The notes beneath the pieces are model-generated. The model saw only the letters and a list, made by a program, of their open reading frames with translations, was not told the DNA's origin and made no database searches. This document shows, in pieces, positions 7,666 through 63,430 of a stretch of DNA of 64,000 nucleotides. Each line of letters starts with the position of its first letter. Positions within the stretch are counted from its first letter, which is position 1. Both the position numbers and the translations under genes were made by a program. Source of the stretch: Acidimicrobiia bacterium (GTDB lineage Bacteria > Actinomycetota > Acidimicrobiia > Acidimicrobiales > Acidimicrobilacustridaceae); NCBI GenBank assembly GCA_020832495.1, contig JAFIEP010000052.1, positions 62,001 to 126,000 on the forward strand, given 5' to 3'.

Positions 7666-7778
7666 GGCGAAAGCGCTGCTCGGGACCCTCTGCGGTGCCT
7701 CAAGATTTGCTCAAGTCGTCGATGGGGGGTGTCCTCCGGCCCAGGCGCGGCGATGCAGGATGATTCCTTCGACTCATG

Positions 7779-7810
7779 TTGACAGTTCCAACTGTAACGG
7801 TTCATACTGT
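7779..7810 (+). promoter_or_regulatory. Promoter with tandem dyad operator for the AurF-like gene
   Basis: A consensus -35 TTGACA (7779-7784) and a -10-like CATACT (7803-7808) are 18 bp apart. CATACT begins 12 nt before the ATG at 7815, the leaderless spacing used elsewhere here. Over the promoter lie two related 14-mers with a 15-bp period: ACAGTTCCAACTGT (7782-7795), a 6-2-6 perfect dyad, and the imperfect ACGGTTCATACTGT (7797-7810). A dimeric repressor bound here would cover both promoter boxes. The MerR-family gene at 8788 is the nearest regulator, but TetR-type regulators also use such dyads, so the binder is unknown. Confidence 0.7.
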
Positions 7811-7814
7811 CGGT

Positions 7815-8777
7815 ATGACCATCACCGAGTCGTCCCCCGCCACGGCGCCGTCGATCCCGGATGTTGAGCCTGGGTCGACCGCCGCTGATCGCTCCCGACC
7901 GACCGTTCCCCTCGCTGATCGAGCACGTCGACTGGTGGCCGCTTCCGAACGCGCCTCGTTCGATCCGTTCACCGAGATCGACTGGTCGCAGCCCATCACC
8001 GACGAGCAGTACCACCTGCCGCCGGAGATCCTGCCGCTGTACGGCACGTCGCAGTGGGAGGCGATGGACGAGGCCGAGCGCCGGACCTACAGCCGTCACG
8101 AGTGCGCTGCGCTGTGCGCTGCAGGCATCTACTTCGAGAACATCCTCATGCGGTTGGTCCTCGAACACCTGGCGGTCATGGGCGCCGATGATCCCTCTCA
8201 TCGGTACCTGCTGGTCGAGACGGCGGACGAGTGCCGGCACTCGGCCATGTTCGGCGAGTACATCCGCCGGGCAGGCACACCGTCGTACCAGCCGGGCCTG
8301 CACCTGCAGCTCGGCCGGTCGCTGATGCTTGCCGTGGCCGGGCGGGCCGAGGGCTACGTGGCCATCCTGGCAGCCGAAGAGCTGCTCGACATCTGCAACC
8401 GGGCCACCATGTCCGACGAGCGGGTGAGTCCCCTCAGCCGGGCCATTGCCAAGATCCACGTCATGGAGGAGGCCCGCCACATGTCCTACGCCCGGGCCTG
8501 GCTCACCGAGAACTGGTCGACCGTCGGGCGTCTGGACCGCCTGCGTGCATCCACCGATGCTCCCTTCATCGTGGCAGGCGTCGTGGACGCCATGGTGAAC
8601 CCTGCGGTGTACCGCCACCTCGACATCGCTGGAGGGTGGCGGGCCGCACGCTTCGGCCCCTGGCGGGAGCGGGTCACCACCGATCTCGAGCGGCTGACCG
8701 ACTTCTTGTCCACCACCGGGGTGATCACCGGGGTGACCCGGCCGGTCTGGCAGGCGCTGGGGTTGGTCCGCGGGTGA
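7815..8777 (+). CDS. AurF-family diiron oxygenase
   Basis: A 320-residue non-haem diiron protein related to the p-aminobenzoate N-oxygenase AurF. The ferritin-like four-helix metal site is visible as successive carboxylate/His motifs: SRHECAALCAAGIYFEN, VETADECRHSAMFGEYI, AAEELLDI and KIHVMEEARHMSYA. Members oxidise amines or other substrates with O2; the substrate here cannot be read from sequence. ATG at 7815 is preferred. An upstream in-frame start (7776) would place the promoter/operator inside the gene. It stands alone behind a strong, operator-covered promoter and is followed by a MerR regulator gene 10 bp later, suggesting inducible expression in response to a small molecule. Confidence 0.88.
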   Translation: MTITESSPATAPSIPDVEPGSTAADRSRPTVPLADRARRLVAASERASFDPFTEIDWSQPITDEQYHLPPEILPLYGTSQWEAMDEAERRTYSRHECAALCAAGIYFENILMRLVLEHLAVMGADDPSHRYLLVETADECRHSAMFGEYIRRAGTPSYQPGLHLQLGRSLMLAVAGRAEGYVAILAAEELLDICNRATMSDERVSPLSRAIAKIHVMEEARHMSYARAWLTENWSTVGRLDRLRASTDAPFIVAGVVDAMVNPAVYRHLDIAGGWRAARFGPWRERVTTDLERLTDFLSTTGVITGVTRPVWQALGLVRG

Positions 8778-11029: not shown

Positions 11030-11671
11030 TCAGACCGGTGTCGGATCTCGCCACATGCCCCACAGGGTCGGACCGTCGGGAAGGGTGATCTCCTCGGTCA
11101 CGGCGAAGCCGAAGCGCTCGTAGTAGGGGAGGTTCACCACGTTGGACGATTCAAGGTAGGCGCCCACCCCGTCGCGGTCGGCCAGGGCGAGCCCGGCGTG
11201 GATCAGCTTGCGGCCGGCTCCGGTTCCGCGGCGGGCGGGGTCGGTGCCGACGGTGGCCAGGTACCAGTGCGGCTCTCGCGGGTGGGCTCGCTCGACGCGA
11301 CCCATGCCCGACACCGCAGCTCGCCAGCGATTCGGTGGTACCGAACCGGCGCCCACCACCATTTCCCGTGCGGCGTCGAGGCCTCGGCTCCGCCACTGGC
11401 CGGGAGCGAACCAGAGCGCGCACCCGGCGCCGTCGTCGGCCACCAGGGAACGGCCGCAACGGCGAGCGTGGACGACTTCCCAGGAGAACAGGCGTCGGGC
11501 GCGGTGTGCTCGAGACGTGGGCTGAGGGAGCAGCCAGGACATGAAGGGGTCGTCGTGGAATGCTGCAGCGAGCAACCCCGCCGCCCACACCTCGGCGTTC
11601 GGTGCCAGGTCCACCACACCGTCGAGTGCGGCGTCGTCATCCGGCCGGTTCGCTCTCCGTTCGCTGGTCAT
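11030..11671 (-). CDS. GNAT-family N-acetyltransferase
   Basis: A 213-residue acetyl-CoA-dependent acyltransferase. The GNAT fold is recognised from HWYLATVGTDPARRGTGAGRKLIHAGL (beta4 strand followed by the acetyl-CoA pyrophosphate loop, R-x-x-G-x-G) and the C-terminal AYLESSNVVNLPYYERFGF typical of the family. The acceptor is unknown. The ATG at 11671 overlaps the stop of the FGGY kinase gene as ATGA, so the two are co-translated; the frame extends far upstream of this but only antisense to the kinase. Pairing with a sugar kinase does not by itself reveal the substrate. Confidence 0.85.
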   Translation of the reverse strand: MTSERRANRPDDDAALDGVVDLAPNAEVWAAGLLAAAFHDDPFMSWLLPQPTSRAHRARRLFSWEVVHARRCGRSLVADDGAGCALWFAPGQWRSRGLDAAREMVVGAGSVPPNRWRAAVSGMGRVERAHPREPHWYLATVGTDPARRGTGAGRKLIHAGLALADRDGVGAYLESSNVVNLPYYERFGFAVTEEITLPDGPTLWGMWRDPTPV

Positions 11672-13302
11672 GAGTCGGCAGCGTGTGTCGTGAGCCGGCG
11701 ATGGATGCCGCGGTTCTTGCGGTAGATGGCAACCAGCGCGGCGAAGTGCTCGTCGTAGACCGCGCGGTGCGCTCGATCGGGTCGGTAGGTGTGGTTGATG
11801 GTCACGGCCCCCTCGACGTCGGGCCAGCGCAGGTGTCCCAGGGTGACCGCTGCGCTCAACGCCGCGCCACGCACGTTGGCCAGGACCGGATCTGCCACCT
11901 GGCGGATCGGCCGGTCGAGCACGTCGGCCATGATCTGGCACCACAGCTCCGACCGGGCGCCGCCGCCGACGAAGGTGACGTGCTCGAAACGGGTGCGGCT
12001 GAAGCGCTCGGCGGCCTCGAGCATCCAGCGGGCGTTGAGCGCCACTCCTTCGAAGGTGGCGCGTACCAGGTCGGCCCGCGTGGTGGTGAGGCCCAGGTGG
12101 TGCCAGCCAGCGCGGATGGTGTGGTCGTCGACCGGGGTGCGCTCGCCGTTCAGCCACGGGGTGAACACCACCCCGTTGCTCCCCGCCGGCACTCGGGCCG
12201 CCACCTCGTTGCAGCGTTCCAGCACATCGGGTGGCATCGGCGGGCCGAGGCCGTCGTCGGGGTACAGCACGTTCTCGGCCAGCCAGGTCAGGCACTTGCC
12301 GGCAGTGTCTTGTTCCGTGGCCACCCAGTAGCGACCCGGGACACCGGCGGGTAACGAGGTGATGTTGTTGCGCAGGTCGGTGCGCTTGGTGGGCGTGTGA
12401 CAGCTCAGCCACGACGACGTGCCGACGTAGAGGTGCGCGTCCAGGTCGCGGACCGTCCCCGCACCGATGGCGGCCGACGCAGTGTCACCGGTGGCGGTCA
12501 CCACCGACACGTCGGTCCCGAGCCCCAGTTCCTCGGCTGCCTCGGGGGTGAGCGTGCCCACCACGCTGCCCGTGGGAAGCAGGTCGGGCAGCTTGGTGGG
12601 GTCGACGTCGATCCACGACACGAGTTGTTCGTCCCAGCGGACCGCGCCGAGGTCCCGGTTGTCGGTGGCCCAGAAGCCCACGGCGGTGTCGAACGACGCC
12701 GACGCCCGACCACACAGCCGCAGGTTCAGGTAGTCGGGGACGTCGAGGAACACCTTGGTGGCGGCGTAGCGCTCGGGTTCGTTGTGGCGGATCCAGGCGA
12801 TGTGGCCGACCGGGTCCTTCCCGCTCAACGAAGGAACACCGCCGGTCAGCCGCAGCCAGGAGCGGAGCTTCACCGGGTCGTAGCCGGCGACGCTGGCCCG
12901 CCCGCCCAGACGTCCGCTCACCAACTGACGGACGTGAGGGGCGCCGCGGGCGTCCATCCAGATGAGGGCGTTCCCGAGGTGCTCACCGTGCTCGTCGACG
13001 GCCACCGTGCCCATCCACTGCGACGTCACGGCCACTGCCACCACCCGGTCGGCTGCCACCGCGTCGTCGGCGAGCACCTCTCGGGCCCCGTCGACGATGG
13101 CCTTCCACCACGCAGCAGGGTCCTGTTCCACGCCGTCGTCGGGGGTGAAGACGAGGTCACAGGTCCGAGTGGTGTGGGCCAGGACGACGCCGTCGGTGGT
13201 CACCACCGCCACCTTGGGTCCGCCCGTGCCCAGGTCCACGGCGAGTATGGACGGCGCCGGAGGTCGCTGAGGTGCGGCAGTGTCGGGGCTCAACGGCGTC
13301 AC
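11668..13302 (-). CDS. FGGY-family carbohydrate kinase
   Basis: A 544-residue ATP-dependent sugar kinase of the xylulokinase/glycerol-kinase superfamily. The N-terminal FGGY domain starts with the phosphate-1 motif ILAVDLGTGGPKVAVV, and VAVTSQWMGTVAVDEHG and LIWMDARG line the sugar site. The C-terminal domain has TATGDTASAAIGAG and the adenosine motif FVGGGARSELWCQIMADVLD. The substrate is probably a sugar or polyol not predictable from sequence. The start is GTG at 13302, facing the ligase gene at 13358 with only a 55-bp divergent gap, so shared regulation with that operon is possible. Confidence 0.9.
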   Translation of the reverse strand: MTPLSPDTAAPQRPPAPSILAVDLGTGGPKVAVVTTDGVVLAHTTRTCDLVFTPDDGVEQDPAAWWKAIVDGAREVLADDAVAADRVVAVAVTSQWMGTVAVDEHGEHLGNALIWMDARGAPHVRQLVSGRLGGRASVAGYDPVKLRSWLRLTGGVPSLSGKDPVGHIAWIRHNEPERYAATKVFLDVPDYLNLRLCGRASASFDTAVGFWATDNRDLGAVRWDEQLVSWIDVDPTKLPDLLPTGSVVGTLTPEAAEELGLGTDVSVVTATGDTASAAIGAGTVRDLDAHLYVGTSSWLSCHTPTKRTDLRNNITSLPAGVPGRYWVATEQDTAGKCLTWLAENVLYPDDGLGPPMPPDVLERCNEVAARVPAGSNGVVFTPWLNGERTPVDDHTIRAGWHHLGLTTTRADLVRATFEGVALNARWMLEAAERFSRTRFEHVTFVGGGARSELWCQIMADVLDRPIRQVADPVLANVRGAALSAAVTLGHLRWPDVEGAVTINHTYRPDRAHRAVYDEHFAALVAIYRKNRGIHRRLTTHAADS

Positions 13303-13357: not shown

Positions 13358-14728
13358 GTGAGCGACTCCAGCGATGCCACCCGAGCCCTCGTCGACGAAC
13401 TGCACGGCGACCCGGCCGACTACGTGAAGGTGGCCATCGTCGACATCGACGGTGTGCTCCGGGGCAAGTACCTCGACAAGGCCAAGTTCGTCAGCGCGCT
13501 GGCCGACGGGTTCGGCTTCTGCGACGTGGTGTTCGGGTGGGATTCCGCCGACGAGTGCTACGACAACGGCAGCTACACGGGCTGGCAGAGCGGCTATCCC
13601 GACGGCACGGTTCGGATCGATCCGACCACTCACCGCCGGGTGCCGTGGGAGGGCGGCCGGCACTTCTTCCTGTGCGACTACGTGGGCTCCGATCCGGCCA
13701 CGGTGGTGTGCCCCCGGCGGTTGTTGCAGCGGACCATCGATCGGGCGGCGTCGGCGGGCTACCGCTCGTTCCAGGGCATGGAGTTCGAGTGGTTCAACTT
13801 CCGCGAGAGCCCCCAGACCCTTCACGACAAGGACTTCCGCCATCTCGAGCCGCTGTCACCCGGCATGTTCGGCTACTCGGTGTTGCGCCAGACCCACGGC
13901 CAGGACTTCTTCGGGGCGCTGCTCAGCGACCTGCGGGCGTTCGACGTGCCGCTCGAGGGACTCCACACCGAGACCGGTCCTGGGGTCTACGAGGCGGCGC
14001 TCATCTACAGCGAGGCGCTCGAGGCCGCTGATCGGGCCGAACTGTTCAAGTCGGGCGCCAAGGAGATCGGCCACCGCTTCGGCATCCTCCCCACCTTCAT
14101 GGCCCGGTGGAACACCGACCTCCCGGGCTGTTCGGGCCATGTGCACCAGAGCCTGCGGGCGCTCGAGGGGGAGGCCAACCTGTTCCACGACCCCGAGGCT
14201 TCCGACGGCATGAGCAGCCTGTTCCGGTCGTACCTGGCCGGCATATTGGAGCTCCTCCCCGAAATGCTCGTGTTGTTCGCCCCGACGGTGAACTCCTACA
14301 AGCGGCTGGTCGACGGGTTCTGGGCCCCCACCCGACCCACGTGGGGCATCGACAACCGGACGGTGGCCTGCCGGGTCATCCCCGGCGGACCGAAGGCCAC
14401 CCGCCTCGAGTTGCGGGTACCCGGTGCCGACGTCAACCCCTACCTGGCGGTGGCCGGCGGGCTGGCGGCGGGGCTGTGGGGTGTCGAGCAGGGACTCGAG
14501 CTCGACCGTCCGCCCACGCAAGGGAGCGGCTACGCCGACGAGTCGGTGGCGCGGCTGCCGCGCACGCTCATCGAAGCCACCCGCCTTTTTGCCGACTCCG
14601 AGCGGGTCCGTGGCCTGCTGGGCGACGACTTCGTCGACCATTTCGCCGCCACCCGCGAATGGGAGTGGCGCCAGTTCGTCGATTCCGTCACCGACTGGGA
14701 GCTCCGCCGCTACCTCGAGATCATCTGA
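13358..14728 (+). CDS. Glutamine-synthetase-family gamma-glutamyl-amine ligase
   Basis: A 456-residue GS-fold enzyme of the PuuA/GlnA3/GlnA4 group, which joins glutamate to an amine with ATP. Motifs: MEFEWFNF and HTETGPGVYEAAL (metal/glutamate site), FMARWNTDLPGCSGHVHQSL (ATP/His loop), NSYKRLVDGFWAPTRPTWG and LELRVPGADVNPYLA. No adenylylation-type C-terminus is apparent. The start is GTG at 13358; a TACACT box lies 14 nt upstream. The three downstream genes complete an oxidation-and-hydrolysis pathway. Because one is an iron alcohol dehydrogenase, an amino alcohol such as ethanolamine (as for GlnA4 of Streptomyces) fits better than a simple diamine; this is inference. Confidence 0.88.
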   Translation: MSDSSDATRALVDELHGDPADYVKVAIVDIDGVLRGKYLDKAKFVSALADGFGFCDVVFGWDSADECYDNGSYTGWQSGYPDGTVRIDPTTHRRVPWEGGRHFFLCDYVGSDPATVVCPRRLLQRTIDRAASAGYRSFQGMEFEWFNFRESPQTLHDKDFRHLEPLSPGMFGYSVLRQTHGQDFFGALLSDLRAFDVPLEGLHTETGPGVYEAALIYSEALEAADRAELFKSGAKEIGHRFGILPTFMARWNTDLPGCSGHVHQSLRALEGEANLFHDPEASDGMSSLFRSYLAGILELLPEMLVLFAPTVNSYKRLVDGFWAPTRPTWGIDNRTVACRVIPGGPKATRLELRVPGADVNPYLAVAGGLAAGLWGVEQGLELDRPPTQGSGYADESVARLPRTLIEATRLFADSERVRGLLGDDFVDHFAATREWEWRQFVDSVTDWELRRYLEII

Positions 14729-14773
14729 CCGCCCCGCTCGTCCTACCTCGCCCGCCATCACCCCGGAGACACC

Positions 14774-15919
14774 GTGAGCATCGACACCTTCAGCTTCCCG
14801 ACCACCATTCGCTTCGGCGTGGGTGCTCGTGACCTGCTGCCCGCCGAGCTGGCCGCTTCGGGGGTGTGTCGACCGTTGGTGGTGACCGACAAGGGCGTGT
14901 CGGGGCTGCCGTTCTGCGGCGAGATCCTGGCGCTCGCCGGATCGGGTGGCAACGACGCCGCGCTGTTCGACGGGGTGTGGGGCAACCCCGTGGCCAGCCA
15001 GGTGGCAGCGGGGGTGGAGGCCTACCGTGCCCACGACGCCGACGGTGTGGTGGGACTCGGCGGCGGGGCCGCGCTGGACGTGGCCAAGGCCGTGGCGCTG
15101 ATGGCCACCCATCCTGGCGAGCTGTTCGACTACGAGGACGAGAAGCCGGGTGGTTCGGTGGTGACCGACGCCGTCTGCCCGATCGTGGCCGTCCCCACCA
15201 CGGCGGGCACCGGCAGCGAGGTCGGTCGGGCTGCCGTCATCTCCGAGGACGACACCCACGTCAAGCGCATCATCTTCGGCCCGGCCCTGTTGGCCCGGGT
15301 GGTGCTGGCCGATCCGCAGCTCACCGTCGACCTGCCGGGCCCGATCACGGCCGCCACCGGTATGGACGCGCTGACCCACAACGTGGAGGCGTACCTGGCG
15401 CGCCACTATCACCCGATCTGCGACGGCATCGCCCTCGAGGGCATCCGCCAGGTGGCTACGCATCTCGAGCGGGCCGTGGCCGAGCCGGGCGACCTCGACG
15501 CCCGCGGCGGCATGCTCATGGCCTCGATGATGGGCGCCATTGCCTTCCAGAAGGGCTTGGGCCTCGTGCACTCGTGTGCCCACGCCCTCGGTACCGTGGC
15601 CGATGTGCACCACGGTCTGGCCAACGGGGTGATGATCGACCTGGCGCTGCCGTTCAACGTGGAGGCCGTGCCCGAACGGTTCGAACACATGGCCACCGCC
15701 GCCGCCATCTCCGACGTCAGCCCGGCGGGCTTCCTCGGTTGGCTGGCCGACCTGAAGGCGGCGGTGGGCATTCCCCGCGCGCTCGTCGACCTGGGCATCG
15801 ATCCGGACCTGCAACCCGAGTTGGTGCGGGTGGCGGCCAACGACGCCTGTCACCCGAACAACCCGCGGCCGGTGACGGCAGCCGATTTCGATGCCATCTT
15901 CACCAAGGCCTTCGCATGA
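14774..15919 (+). CDS. Iron-containing (group III) alcohol dehydrogenase
   Basis: A 381-residue NAD(P)-dependent dehydrogenase. The dinucleotide site is GVVGLGGGAALDVAKAVAL, and the conserved VPTTAGTGSEV precedes the iron site. The metal ligands are the Asp and His of ATGMDALTHNVEAYL plus the His residues of GLVHSCAHALG and DVHHGLANGVM. The C-terminal motif NDACHPNNPRPV is typical of the family. It probably oxidises the free hydroxyl of a gamma-glutamylated amino alcohol to an aldehyde for the downstream aldehyde dehydrogenase (inference from context). GTG at 14774 follows a GGAG. Its stop overlaps the next gene as ATGA. Confidence 0.92.
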   Translation: MSIDTFSFPTTIRFGVGARDLLPAELAASGVCRPLVVTDKGVSGLPFCGEILALAGSGGNDAALFDGVWGNPVASQVAAGVEAYRAHDADGVVGLGGGAALDVAKAVALMATHPGELFDYEDEKPGGSVVTDAVCPIVAVPTTAGTGSEVGRAAVISEDDTHVKRIIFGPALLARVVLADPQLTVDLPGPITAATGMDALTHNVEAYLARHYHPICDGIALEGIRQVATHLERAVAEPGDLDARGGMLMASMMGAIAFQKGLGLVHSCAHALGTVADVHHGLANGVMIDLALPFNVEAVPERFEHMATAAAISDVSPAGFLGWLADLKAAVGIPRALVDLGIDPDLQPELVRVAANDACHPNNPRPVTAADFDAIFTKAFA

Positions 15920-16710
15920 GCGACGCTTCGGCCGACCGGCCGCTGCGTATCGGTGTGTCGGCAAACTTCTTTCCACCCGACCCGCAGCGCATGATCTACC
16001 CCCACAGTCGACTGCTCTACGCCGATGAGGCCATGGCGAACTGGTTCGCCTCGAGCGGAGCGGTGGTCTACGTGCTCCCCACCAGCGGGAGCGATCCCCG
16101 GCGGTTGGCCGACTACGTGGCCGACCTCGACGGGCTGGGGGTCACCGGTGGTGCCGACGTGTGTCCCCGCAGCTACGGCGAGGAGCCACTCCGACCCGAG
16201 TGGGAGGGCCAAGCCGAGCGCGACGCGTACGAGATCGAACTGGTGCAGCGCTTCCTCGAGGCGGGCAAGCCGGTGCTCGGCGTGTGTCGCGGCGAACAGA
16301 TCCTCAACGTGGCCCTCGGCGGCACGCTGTACCAGGACATCAGCACGCAGGTGGACACCACCCGGGTGCACCGGTCCCAGGAGCTCTACCACCGCAACCT
16401 CCACGAGGTGGACCTGGTGGCCGGGTCGGGCCTGGCCGGGCTCTATCCCGGGGTGGCCACCGCCACGGTGAATTCCATCCACCACCAAGGGGTGAAGGAC
16501 GTTGCCCCCGGTGTGGTGGTGGAGGCCCGTTCCAGCGACGACGGCGTGGTGGAAGCCATCCGCCTCGAGGGATCAGGGGTGGGCACCGGCACCTATGCCG
16601 TGGGGGTGCAGTGGCATCCGGAGTTCTTCCACCTCGTCGACGACGTGCCACTGCTCGACACCGCTCCGCTCCGCGACGAGTTCTACGCGGCGGCTGCGGC
16701 CGCCCGTTGA
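15916..16710 (+). CDS. Class I glutamine-amidotransferase-like gamma-glutamyl hydrolase (PuuD type)
   Basis: A 264-residue peptidase C26 hydrolase. The nucleophile Cys lies in VLGVCRGEQILNVALGG, the catalytic His in VGVQWHPEF, and a C26 oxyanion segment is seen in LGVTGGADVCPRSYGEEP. Members cleave the gamma-glutamyl bond, for example gamma-glutamyl-GABA in the Puu pathway, releasing glutamate and the oxidised amine. In this operon the expected final reaction is release of an amino acid from its gamma-glutamyl form. The ATG overlaps the dehydrogenase stop by 4 nt, so the two genes are translationally coupled. Confidence 0.9.
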   Translation: MSDASADRPLRIGVSANFFPPDPQRMIYPHSRLLYADEAMANWFASSGAVVYVLPTSGSDPRRLADYVADLDGLGVTGGADVCPRSYGEEPLRPEWEGQAERDAYEIELVQRFLEAGKPVLGVCRGEQILNVALGGTLYQDISTQVDTTRVHRSQELYHRNLHEVDLVAGSGLAGLYPGVATATVNSIHHQGVKDVAPGVVVEARSSDDGVVEAIRLEGSGVGTGTYAVGVQWHPEFFHLVDDVPLLDTAPLRDEFYAAAAAAR

Positions 16711-16761
16711 CATGGCCCGCAGCGGCCTGATGTGTCCGGTGACCGACCGAGGAGACCACCC

Positions 16762-18138
16762 GTGCAGATCGTGAACCCCGCCACCGGAGCCGTGCTCGAC
16801 GAGGTGCCCGAGACCACCGTCGACGGGGTGGCCGCCGCCTACGAGACCGCTCGCGCCGGACAGCCGGCCTGGGCGGCGCGACCGCTCCCGGAGCGCATCG
16901 ACGCCGTGCGGCGCTTCGCTGCGTCAGTGGAGGCCCAGCGCGACCAGTTGGCTCCCATCCTCACCGCCGAGACCGGCAAGCCGATTGCTCAGGCCGCCGG
17001 GGAGATCACGGCCACGTTGGCCCGTATCGAGTTCTTCGTGGACCACGTGACCGGGGTGACGGCCGACCAGGTGGTGCACGAGAGCGACGGGCTCCGCGAG
17101 GTGATCCGTCGTGAGCCGCTCGGGGTGGTGGCCAACATCTCGGCGTGGAACTACCCGTGGTTCGTGGGCACCAACGTGTTCGTGCCGGCGCTGCTGTGCG
17201 GCAACGCCGTGCTCTACAAGCCGTCGGAGTACGCCACCCGGACCGGGCTGGCCATTGCGGATCTGTTGCACGCCGCTGGGGTGCCCGAGCCGGTGTTCGC
17301 TGCCCTCCCCGGCGGCGGTGCCACCGGGGCAGCGCTGCTCGACCAACCCATCGACGCCGTGTTCTTCACCGGTTCCCATCCGACGGGGAGGCGTATCGCC
17401 GAGGCCGTCGCCGGTCGCATGGTGAAGGTACAGCTCGAGCTCGGCGGCAAGGACCCGGTGTACGTGGCCGACGACGTCGACGTGACCGCCGCGGCGGCAG
17501 CGTTGGCCGACGGGGCGTTCTACAACAACGGCCAGTCGTGCTGCGCGGTCGAGCGGATCTACGTGCACGAGGCCGTGCACGACGAATTCGTCGAGGCGTT
17601 CGTGGCCGAGGTGGAGCGGTTCGCCATGGGCGACCCCACCGACCCGACCACCTACCTCGGGCCGCTCACCCGGCCACAGCAGGCCGAGGTGCTCGCTGCC
17701 CAGGTGGCCGACGCCGTCGACCGGGGCGCCATCGTGCGCACCGGCGGGGGCGTGCTCGACGACCGAGGGGGTCCCGCCGGCGCCTGGTTCGCCCCCACCG
17801 TGCTCACCGGTGTCGACAACATCATGGTGGTCTTCCGTGAGGAGAGCTTCGGCCCGGTGATCGGCATTGCCTCGGTGCCCGACGACGACGCTGCCGTGGC
17901 CGCCATGGACGACACCGAGTACGGGCTCACCGCCGGGGTGTTCACCACCGACGAGGAGCGGGCCCGCCGGGTGCTCGACCGCCTCGACGTGGGCAGCGCC
18001 TATTGGAACTGCTGCGACCGGGTGAGCCCCACGCTGCCGTGGACCGGTCGACGCCACTCGGGTATCGGCTCGACGCTCTCGGTCGAGGGCATCAGTACGT
18101 TCACGCGGCCGAAGGCGTACCACCTGCGTCGTCCGTGA
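16762..18138 (+). CDS. NAD(P)-dependent aldehyde dehydrogenase
   Basis: A 458-residue ALDH-superfamily enzyme. Visible motifs are the active-site entrance NISAWNYPWFVGTN, cofactor loop FFTGSHPTGRRIAEA, the Glu of QLELGGKDPVYVA and the nucleophilic Cys in NNGQSCCAVERIYVHE. EESFGPVIGIASV is the usual C-terminal motif. I chose GTG at 16762 because GAGGAG lies 8 nt upstream; an earlier GTG at 16732 would add ten basic unconserved residues. It should oxidise the gamma-glutamyl aldehyde produced by the iron dehydrogenase to the acid, which the hydrolase then splits. Confidence 0.92.
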   Translation: MQIVNPATGAVLDEVPETTVDGVAAAYETARAGQPAWAARPLPERIDAVRRFAASVEAQRDQLAPILTAETGKPIAQAAGEITATLARIEFFVDHVTGVTADQVVHESDGLREVIRREPLGVVANISAWNYPWFVGTNVFVPALLCGNAVLYKPSEYATRTGLAIADLLHAAGVPEPVFAALPGGGATGAALLDQPIDAVFFTGSHPTGRRIAEAVAGRMVKVQLELGGKDPVYVADDVDVTAAAAALADGAFYNNGQSCCAVERIYVHEAVHDEFVEAFVAEVERFAMGDPTDPTTYLGPLTRPQQAEVLAAQVADAVDRGAIVRTGGGVLDDRGGPAGAWFAPTVLTGVDNIMVVFREESFGPVIGIASVPDDDAAVAAMDDTEYGLTAGVFTTDEERARRVLDRLDVGSAYWNCCDRVSPTLPWTGRRHSGIGSTLSVEGISTFTRPKAYHLRRP

Positions 18139-60840: not shown

Positions 60841-61352
60841 CGGTCCAGCTCCTCGAACTGCACGGTGGTGGCGGCCAGGACGGACCACTCTTGGTGCTCT
60901 GCTGCGGCTCGCTCGTCGGCCACCCGGTCGCAGAGCGCCATCACCTCATCGGCCAGCGGCCGGCGAGCGGTGGCCTCGGCGTCCAGCACCGCAGCGGCCA
61001 GGGTCGGGATGGGTTCGTCGCCCAGGCGCATGGCCCACCCCCGGGTGCCGTCGAGGTCGATCTCGGCTCGGGTGGCCAGCACCTCGGTGAGGTGGAACCG
61101 GTCGCCGACCACGGGCTCGCGCACCTGCACCACCACCGTGCCGACCTCCGGGCCGACGATCAGCTGCGGTGGCGAACCTTCGGCCACCGCCCGCTCGGCC
61201 AGCCCGATGACGTCGTCGGGCGGCGCGGCGGCGAGCAGCTCGCAGCGTTGCTCGCGGGTCCACCCGCCGCCGTTGCGGCGTCCATCGTCGGTCGGTCGGC
61301 GGCGCGCCTGCTGCTCGCGCTCGGTGCGGGCGGGGGGATCGATGGTGCTCAC
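60837..61352 (-). CDS. phnG: Carbon-phosphorus lyase complex subunit PhnG
   Basis: A 171-residue core subunit. TREQRCELLAAAPPDDVIGL, the central QLIVGPEVGTVVVQVREPVV and GDRFHLTEVLATRAEIDLDG match the PhnG pattern; the tail WSVLAATTVQFEELDR is also typical. The first ~30 residues are a basic, disordered extension. GTG at 61352 overlaps the phnF stop (GTGA). Confidence 0.9.
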   Translation of the reverse strand: MSTIDPPARTEREQQARRRPTDDGRRNGGGWTREQRCELLAAAPPDDVIGLAERAVAEGSPPQLIVGPEVGTVVVQVREPVVGDRFHLTEVLATRAEIDLDGTRGWAMRLGDEPIPTLAAAVLDAEATARRPLADEVMALCDRVADERAAAEHQEWSVLAATTVQFEELDR

Positions 61353-62128
61353 GAGGCGGCCTCCAACCGGAACACGACCTTGAAGACGTCGGTGCGGAGC
61401 CACGAGCGGGCGAACTCGATGGGCCGTCCCTCGCCGTCGTGGTTGCACGACAGCAACCACCAGGCGAGTGGACGGCCGGAGAGCCCCAACAGGCTTGCGG
61501 CCTCGGGTGCGAGCACATCGAGTTCGGCAGTGCTCCACGCACGCCGAGGCGAGACGCGATAGTGCTCGACCAACGTGGTGTAGAGCGACGCACTGTCGGC
61601 GTGCCTGCTGCTGGTCTCGATGCCGTTGCTGGTGTCGCACGTGGTGCCATCGGCGCAGCCGTCCCCGGCGACCAGCTGTGCCGGCAGGTCTGTGAATCGG
61701 TCGGCTGGGAAGTGCGAGGAGCTGATGCCGGCCTGTTCGCCGTCGACCCAGCCTCGCCGGTCGACGCGCACCACGGGAGCGCCCGGGGCCAGGCCGAGGG
61801 CGTCCGCCACCTCCCCGTCGGCGGCGACGACCTCGGTGGCCAGCAGTTCGTTGCGGGGCACGCCGCCGGCGCGGCGGACGGTCTCGCTCCACGACGGGGG
61901 TGTGTCGGCGGCGATGCGGTACTCGATGCGACGGGCCACGAACGTGCCGGCGCCACGAACCCGCCGCACGAGGTGGCGGCGCTCGAGCTCTTGCAACGCT
62001 GCGCGGGCCGTGAGCCGGCTGATGCCGTGGAGGTCGACCAGTTCGTGTTCCGACGGCACCCGGCTACCGGGTACGGCCTTCCGTACGTCGACCTCGAGCG
62101 AGTCGGCGAGCGCCAGGTAGGTGGTCAC
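61349..62128 (-). CDS. phnF: GntR/HutC-family regulator of the phosphonate operon
   Basis: A 259-residue repressor-type regulator. The N-terminal winged helix (~5-70) contains PGSRVPSEHELVDLHGISRL, then TARAALQELERRHLVRRVRG and GAGTFVA. A UTRA effector domain (~90-255) follows, with APVVRVDRRGWVDGEQAGIS and FPADRFTDLPAQL. As the first gene of the minus-strand phn operon, it most likely senses phosphate or a phosphonate-derived ligand and binds the palindrome at 62152-62165. The start is GTG at 62128. Its stop overlaps phnG by 4 nt, so regulator and enzyme genes are co-translated. Confidence 0.9.
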   Translation of the reverse strand: MTTYLALADSLEVDVRKAVPGSRVPSEHELVDLHGISRLTARAALQELERRHLVRRVRGAGTFVARRIEYRIAADTPPSWSETVRRAGGVPRNELLATEVVAADGEVADALGLAPGAPVVRVDRRGWVDGEQAGISSSHFPADRFTDLPAQLVAGDGCADGTTCDTSNGIETSSRHADSASLYTTLVEHYRVSPRRAWSTAELDVLAPEAASLLGLSGRPLAWWLLSCNHDGEGRPIEFARSWLRTDVFKVVFRLEAAS

Positions 62129-62151
62129 ACCACCAACGGGACCACGACCGC

Positions 62152-62165
62152 GTTGTCATGACAAC
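62152..62165. promoter_or_regulatory. Palindrome upstream of phnF, probable PhnF operator
   Basis: GTTGTCATGACAAC is a perfect 14-bp palindrome centred about 30 bp before the phnF start. Its size and TGTC...GACA arms are like GntR/HutC operators. It is the only strong symmetric site in the 120-bp gap before the phn operon. Confidence 0.65.
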
Positions 62166-62248
62166 CGAACTCCGGTCGAACCTTGGGTGCCCCTCGATGA
62201 ACGAAAGGTGACCGATGAGCCGCGGGCGATGGTGGACCCTCGAGTGCG

Positions 62249-63430
62249 TCAGGTGGTGGTGTCGAGCACCTCGACCAGTCGGCGGAACAGTGTGGTCGGG
62301 ACGTGCTCGGAGAGCTGGGAGACGTTCATCACGATCACGACGGTGGTGTCGGTGTCGACGTCGTGCATGACGAGCGAGGTGAAGCCGAATCCTTCTCCGG
62401 TGTGGCCCCACCAGCCGGCCACCTCGCCGATGCCCAGGGCGTACTCGTCGTACACCGGACCCTCGTCGAGCGGTGCACCCTCGAGCCGGGCGGCCTGGGT
62501 GGCCTCGTCGAGCAGCGAGCCGTCGGCCAACACCCGACCCCACGCCGCCAGGTCGGCAACCGTGGCCACCATGGCCCCGGCGGGACCGAACACCGAGAAG
62601 TTCACCGGCTGGTCCTCGAGGTCACCGTCGTCGCCCGGCGCGTAGCCGATGACATCGACGTCCACGTCGTCGGGTCCGCTCGGGTAGACGGTGGCGTCGA
62701 GACCCAGCGGGACGAGGAGCCGCTCGTCGAGCACGTCGGCGAAGGCCTGTTCGGTGACGGCCTCGACCAGTTCGCCGAGGAGCACCGTGTTCAGGTTCGT
62801 GTAGACACGCTCGCTCCCGGGTTCGAACTGCATGGGCTCGTCGTCGACGAAGGCGATCAGCTCGTCGATGGTGAACCACCGGGTCGGGTCCTCGACGAAG
62901 GCCTCGACGAACACCTCGTTGGTGTAGTCGGGGAGCCCACTCGACATGTCGGCCAGTTGGCGGACGGTGACGCTCGGATCGCCGGGGACGTCGTCGAGGT
63001 AGTCCCCGATGGGGTCGTCGAGGTCGACCAGGCCTTCGTCCACCAGTTGCAGCACCAACGTCACGGTGAACGTCTTGGTGATGCTGCGCAGCGGCCATTC
63101 GCCGTCTGCCGTCAGGGGCTCGTCGGTATCGAGGTCGCCCACCCCCACGGCTCGGACGAGCTCGTCGTCACCTCGGGTGATGAGCACCACGGCGCCGGGA
63201 GCACCGAACTCCTCGAGGGTGTCGTCGATGACCTCGTCGACGGTCGCACCGAGCGATTCGAGGTTGTCATCGATGGTCGACTCGTCCACGGCGGTGTCGT
63301 TGCCCGTTGACGCGCCGTTCGATTCGTCGCCATCGGACCCGTCGTCCCCGGCGCACCCGGCGAGCACGAGGGCGAGCACAGCCGCCAGGGCAAACCACGT
63401 CGAGAAGCGGGAGGACGATCCATGGAGCAT
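62249..63430 (-). CDS. Serine hydrolase lipoprotein, beta-lactamase/penicillin-binding-like (class C fold)
   Basis: A 393-residue lipoprotein. The lipobox is LALVLAGC at ~25, followed by an acidic Ser/Asp-rich linker. The catalytic motifs of the class C beta-lactamase superfamily are SITK (nucleophile Ser and Lys, in LRSITKTFTVTLV), the YxN motif in RVYTNLNTVLLGE, and HTG in WWGHTGEGFGF. Such proteins are D,D-peptidases or esterases; real beta-lactamase activity is not implied. ATG at 63430 is backed by TACGGT 12 nt upstream; an internal ATG at 63423 is out of frame. It lies upstream of phnF on the same strand, but 120 bp and a palindrome separate them. Confidence 0.88.
   Translation of the reverse strand: MLHGSSSRFSTWFALAAVLALVLAGCAGDDGSDGDESNGASTGNDTAVDESTIDDNLESLGATVDEVIDDTLEEFGAPGAVVLITRGDDELVRAVGVGDLDTDEPLTADGEWPLRSITKTFTVTLVLQLVDEGLVDLDDPIGDYLDDVPGDPSVTVRQLADMSSGLPDYTNEVFVEAFVEDPTRWFTIDELIAFVDDEPMQFEPGSERVYTNLNTVLLGELVEAVTEQAFADVLDERLLVPLGLDATVYPSGPDDVDVDVIGYAPGDDGDLEDQPVNFSVFGPAGAMVATVADLAAWGRVLADGSLLDEATQAARLEGAPLDEGPVYDEYALGIGEVAGWWGHTGEGFGFTSLVMHDVDTDTTVVIVMNVSQLSEHVPTTLFRRLVEVLDTTT

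Follow-up and report, generated by a model that had tools for sequence, protein, structure and literature searches.

Gene content and proposed reactions

The window, the whole 64,000-nucleotide stretch of DNA that was analysed, comes from an uncultured-type actinobacterium. Four genes are tightly packed on its + strand at positions 13358-18138. They encode, in order, a glutamine synthetase (GS)-like ligase, an iron-containing alcohol dehydrogenase (Fe-ADH), a peptidase C26 hydrolase and an aldehyde dehydrogenase (ALDH), and the gene calls bear out a preliminary description that had given this order. A sugar kinase gene lies beside them.

11668..13302, - strand: FGGY-family sugar kinase, divergent from the operon (PF00370/PF02782)
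13358..14728, + strand: GS-like gamma-glutamyl ligase, GTG start (PF00120, 1.6e-87)
14774..15919, + strand: iron-containing alcohol dehydrogenase (PF00465, 4e-43, and PF25137)
15916..16710, + strand: peptidase C26 (PuuD-like) gamma-glutamyl hydrolase (PF07722, 6e-54)
16732..18138, + strand: NAD(P)-type aldehyde dehydrogenase (PF00171, 7.6e-135)

The ligase and Fe-ADH genes are 45 bp apart and the hydrolase and ALDH genes 21 bp apart. The Fe-ADH and hydrolase genes overlap by 4 bp, the hydrolase ATG running into the Fe-ADH stop (ATGA). No permease, TRAP transporter or regulator (RpiR) gene adjoins the operon in the window. When 90 neighbouring ORFs were scanned for ethanolamine or lipid genes, nothing recurred beyond EamA transporter, HAD and GNAT genes. 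Elsewhere in the window, at 7776-8777 (+), there is a gene for an AurF-like N-oxygenase (PF11583) with a MerR-family regulator gene after it, and a GntR/UTRA regulator gene adjoins a gene for a beta-lactamase-family serine hydrolase (PF00144) at 61349-63430 (-).

All four proteins have the expected catalytic residues. Given as motif positions, the Fe-ADH has the metal ligands D198, H202, H266 and H280, the C26 hydrolase has C124, H234 and E236, and the ALDH has C270 or C271, E236 and N140. The hydrolase can be aligned with the PuuD structure 6vtv. The ALDH, assigned by PF00171 at the family level only, is 52-58% identical to the ALDHs of permease-linked operons. The cluster lacks a PuuB-type gamma-glutamylputrescine oxidase and has the Fe-ADH in that place.

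In the pathway we propose, the ligase would join ethanolamine to glutamate at the expense of ATP, giving gamma-glutamylethanolamide. The Fe-ADH would convert the hydroxyl of this product to an aldehyde, the ALDH would convert the aldehyde to gamma-glutamylglycine, and the C26 hydrolase would split the latter into glycine and glutamate, which would be recycled. We infer the substrate, the direction, which cofactors are used and which of the last two steps comes first. The genes very probably encode gamma-glutamylation of an amino alcohol in general; judged from sequence, the operon is probably one for ethanolamine catabolism by this means.

Phylogeny of the ligase and the alcohol dehydrogenase

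In an alignment with the canonical GlnA proteins of the same genome, the ligase retains the residues for metal, glutamate and ATP (E142, E144, E205, E212, H261, R316, R339 and E351). W322 replaces the GlnA ammonia-site residue E327 and F171 replaces Y179; the column for GlnA D50 aligned only loosely and D50 was left out of the evidence. Comparable loss of the ammonia-site residue has been published for GlnA4 (F331) and PauA7 (W296). With a Trp at the E327 position, the enzyme is therefore not an ordinary glutamine synthetase. For GlnA, type III GS and gamma-glutamylputrescine synthetase alike, its score is far under the NCBIfam cut-off.

The ligase tree falls into two groups across a well-supported branch (98/90). 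The first contains the marine ethanolamine-operon ligases and the nearest solved structure, 5dm3, which we take to be Csal_0679 of Chromohalobacter salexigens. The second contains the window type, the Legionella and Rhizobium types, and IpuC. The window-type ligases form a clade of their own (99/97) and are not nested among the C. salexigens and Phaeobacter ethanolamine ligases. Because the tree sets the window ligase outside the 5dm3 clade, function transfer from 5dm3 alone was dropped. The predicted chemistry matches the known pathway, but the key ligase is no orthologue of the ligases known to act on ethanolamine. Its placement outside their clade counts against the ethanolamine reading, as does its grouping with IpuC and with ligases that have aminotransferases and polyamine-type ABC transporters among their neighbours.

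The preliminary description had an alcohol dehydrogenase in the PuuB position, and the Fe-ADH gene does stand second in the operon, its product belonging to a sister clade of the Fe-ADHs of the known marine ethanolamine operon (91/80). The outside group of the Fe-ADH tree consisted of six unlinked plasmid Fe-ADHs with DhaT, YiaY and FucO. The operon-linked Fe-ADHs (window type, marine ethanolamine operon, Legionella/Photobacterium type) group together with a single origin in 90% of bootstrap trees, support that is good, not overwhelming, with some outgroup branches long.

Distribution of the operon and its probable substrate

A ligase-alignment scan, using one genome per species, found 80 named loci (54-71% identity). 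Sixty of them extend 5 kb or more beyond the ligase and could be assessed. Downstream of the ligase and on the same strand, an Fe-ADH is encoded in 54 of the 60, an ALDH in 50 and a C26 hydrolase in 45. All three partners are present in 44, always in the order GS-FeADH-C26-ALDH, and the arrangement is therefore not due to chance. The related loci are mostly from Pseudomonadota and Bacteroidota, and operon loci cover Acidimicrobiia, Burkholderiales, Bacteroidota, Bdellovibrionota, Verrucomicrobiota and others. Within the window's own order, 12 other genomes among 61 searched carry the operon (matches of at least 60%), several of the copies being incomplete through contig ends or intervening genes. 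One Acidimicrobiia relative (L037:10868-12343) has a patatin-like phospholipase gene between the ligase and the Fe-ADH, which would fit lipid turnover.

In 16 loci a gene for an ethanolamine permease homologue precedes the ligase gene in the same orientation, often within 150 bp. It is the immediate upstream neighbour in most Bacteroidota loci, in one Bdellovibrionota locus and in two from Betaproteobacteria. Eleven operon-linked permeases were scanned with TIGR00908, the NCBI curated ethanolamine permease equivalog, which assigns by homology rather than by transport assay. Nine, with 422-609 bits, pass its cut-off of 381.75 bits; they come from Bacteroidota, one Bdellovibrionota (L071) and two Betaproteobacteria (L113 and L131). 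Those of L118 and L139 scored below it (342 and 357 bits). The permease of a Photobacterium cluster with a sister-type ligase reached 545 bits. The window's genome has no match to TIGR00908. In two Bacteroidota loci (L087 and L141) the permease adjoins the ligase with no Fe-ADH or ALDH close by.

EutB (PF06751) has no match in the window's genome, which is 96.9% complete, and 22 of 23 operon-bearing genomes lack it too, in keeping with the earlier proposal that the route would not need the B12 ammonia-lyase. The permease beside the operon in genomes without EutB is the strongest evidence on the substrate, and is indirect for the window. Together with the Fe-ADH grouping, it upholds ethanolamine as the most likely substrate, as had been suggested beforehand.

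Another primary amino alcohol (3-aminopropanol, alaninol or serinol) could undergo the same chemistry, passing through gamma-glutamyl-beta-alanine or gamma-glutamyl-alanine to the free amino acid. We consider this unlikely, though it fares best among the alternatives. Fe-ADHs and ALDHs are often promiscuous, and among the members of the ligase clade is IpuC, whose annotation is isopropylamide synthesis. IpuC (gamma-glutamylisopropylamide synthetase) is on the window's side of the 98/90 branch but has a long branch of its own and adjoins P450 and ferredoxin genes, not an Fe-ADH. Ethanolamine also leaves the FGGY kinase unexplained. Its gene is 55 bp upstream of the ligase and divergent, and kinase and ligase genes adjoin in the window, in G002, G005 and G007 (window-type ligase) and in G044 and G056 (other clade), so that the adjacency recurs in Acidimicrobiia in three orientations and two ligase clades; G009 has both genes, kept apart. 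Families, solved structures and genomic contexts yielded no role for the kinase, and its unexplained adjacency leaves room for another substrate. Against a different amino alcohol, the operon-linked permeases belong to the ethanolamine equivalog, with scores above the cut-off in several phyla.

A Puu-like polyamine pathway, with the second step taken over by a different enzyme, is very improbable. The hydrolase and the ALDH are of the PuuD and PuuC families, and some ligase relatives at 47-48% identity adjoin aminotransferases and spermidine/putrescine-type ABC transporters. However, a diamine offers no alcohol to the Fe-ADH, the cluster has neither an amine oxidase nor an aminotransferase, the ligase reaches 191 bits where the cut-off for gamma-glutamylputrescine synthetase is 650, and operons of the same gene order carry the ethanolamine permease. 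Among the ligase relatives, L053 and L054 have as neighbours aminotransferases, P1 peptidases, spermidine/putrescine-type ABC transporters and an N,N-dimethylformamidase-like gene.

In 26 Burkholderiales loci (L074-L138) the gene for the 2-aminoethylphosphonate (AEP)-pyruvate transaminase PhnW directly precedes the ligase gene in the same orientation, 105-600 bp away and in most cases at 105-240 bp. Many of these loci have an AEP ABC permease, and one scanned Burkholderiales locus has the AEP transporter PhnU2 and a phosphonoacetaldehyde dehydrogenase nearby. This neighbourhood, with PhnW and not the permease, counts against the ethanolamine reading and could tie the substrate to AEP metabolism, an explanation we regard as slightly less credible still than the polyamine one. 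AEP carries no hydroxyl on which the Fe-ADH could act, and among the loci seen the PhnW link is confined to Burkholderiales, other lineages having the permease or neither; as a clue to the substrate it was dropped as lineage-limited. Shared lipid head-group nutrition would explain the neighbourhood, and we infer that the adjacency reflects co-location of lipid head-group catabolism.

The least plausible explanation of all takes the ligase for an accessory glutamine synthetase and the four genes for an incidental cluster: membership of PF00120 is in its favour, but the protein has W322 in place of E327, the genome already encodes two separate canonical GS enzymes besides the operon ligase, and the gene order is conserved over phyla.

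Relation to known routes of ethanolamine use

In Phaeobacter sp. MED193, an operon encoding ETAGA, GETADH, GAADDH, GGAH, EtoXVW and RpiR is predicted to provide the same four activities and is induced by phosphorylethanolamine; its binding protein was measured to bind ethanolamine (PMC10132767). According to that paper, related genes have been demonstrated in ethanolamine use in C. salexigens and Agrobacterium C58 (PMC10132767). Plasmid loci of this type agree in gene content with the published operon. The Phaeobacter-type and window operons share the four predicted reactions and sister groups of Fe-ADHs, but their ligases belong to different deep clades. The ethanolamine-operon copies of Ruegeria are 45% identical to the window's Fe-ADH and 41% to its ALDH, and only 36% to its ligase. 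The marine operons use a hydrolase of the N-formylglutamate amidohydrolase type instead of the C26 type, have a TRAP transporter and RpiR, which the window operon lacks, and differ in gene order.

GlnA4 of S. coelicolor has been shown to glutamylate ethanolamine, with the later steps predicted, and the SCO1610-SCO1615 region includes a predicted dehydrogenase of the short-chain type, SCO1611 (PMC6529630, PMC9397018). Like the window's operon, this cluster combines a gamma-glutamylethanolamide synthetase, a dehydrogenase, an ALDH and an amidohydrolase/amidotransferase gene, without eut genes; unlike it, the cluster uses a short-chain dehydrogenase for the second step and has its own regulator. 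In the tree sample, which includes relatives from Embleya and Arthrobacter but not the S. coelicolor ligase itself, these relatives are on the opposite side from the window ligase. The preliminary description had likened the operon to the GlnA4 route, which holds, and had taken the dedicated dehydrogenase as its distinction, which does not, as Streptomyces already has SCO1611 and Phaeobacter an Fe-ADH. With these dehydrogenases and the same four reactions already described, for Phaeobacter, C. salexigens and S. coelicolor, the pathway is known. The Puu pathway of E. coli shares the logic of ligase, ALDH and C26 hydrolase but has the amine oxidase PuuB at the second step and putrescine as substrate.

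The four-gene set is thus probably a further version of the already known B12-free ethanolamine pathway. It differs in its separate ligase clade, in its C26 hydrolase, where the marine operons have another type, and in having no transporter or regulator gene linked to it. Apart from the marine and Streptomyces cases, we found no description of the window's operon type in the open-access literature.

Ethanolamine is among the major head groups of membrane lipids. Ethanolamine-specific ligases may have arisen twice in the GS superfamily, once in the C. salexigens/Phaeobacter clade and once in the window-type clade; the window-type operon would then be a major B12-free route, apparently undescribed, among soil and freshwater bacteria. 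We advance this tentatively, as a possibility that falls a little short of even. If the ethanolamine assignment is right, many bacteria of several phyla without the B12 enzyme would still be able to use ethanolamine, including Bacteroidota whose operon begins with a predicted ethanolamine permease. Current annotation labels the ligase a glutamine synthetase and the other gene products generic dehydrogenases and amidotransferases, so the trait goes unnoticed. The operon would also allow a clean test of independent origin, with two clades of ligases arriving at one substrate.

Other gene sets occur with related ligases. The cluster of Rhizobium L052 encodes no Fe-ADH but a GMC oxidoreductase, likewise an oxidiser of alcohols, which suggests another enzyme for the same kind of step and is consistent with the oxidation of an alcohol in the pathway. 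In the clusters of Legionella lytica and Photobacterium (L050, L056 and L064), the ligase falls on the same side of the tree as the window's and is accompanied by another amidotransferase and by an Fe-ADH akin to that of the marine ethanolamine operon; these clusters are a third variant of the pathway.
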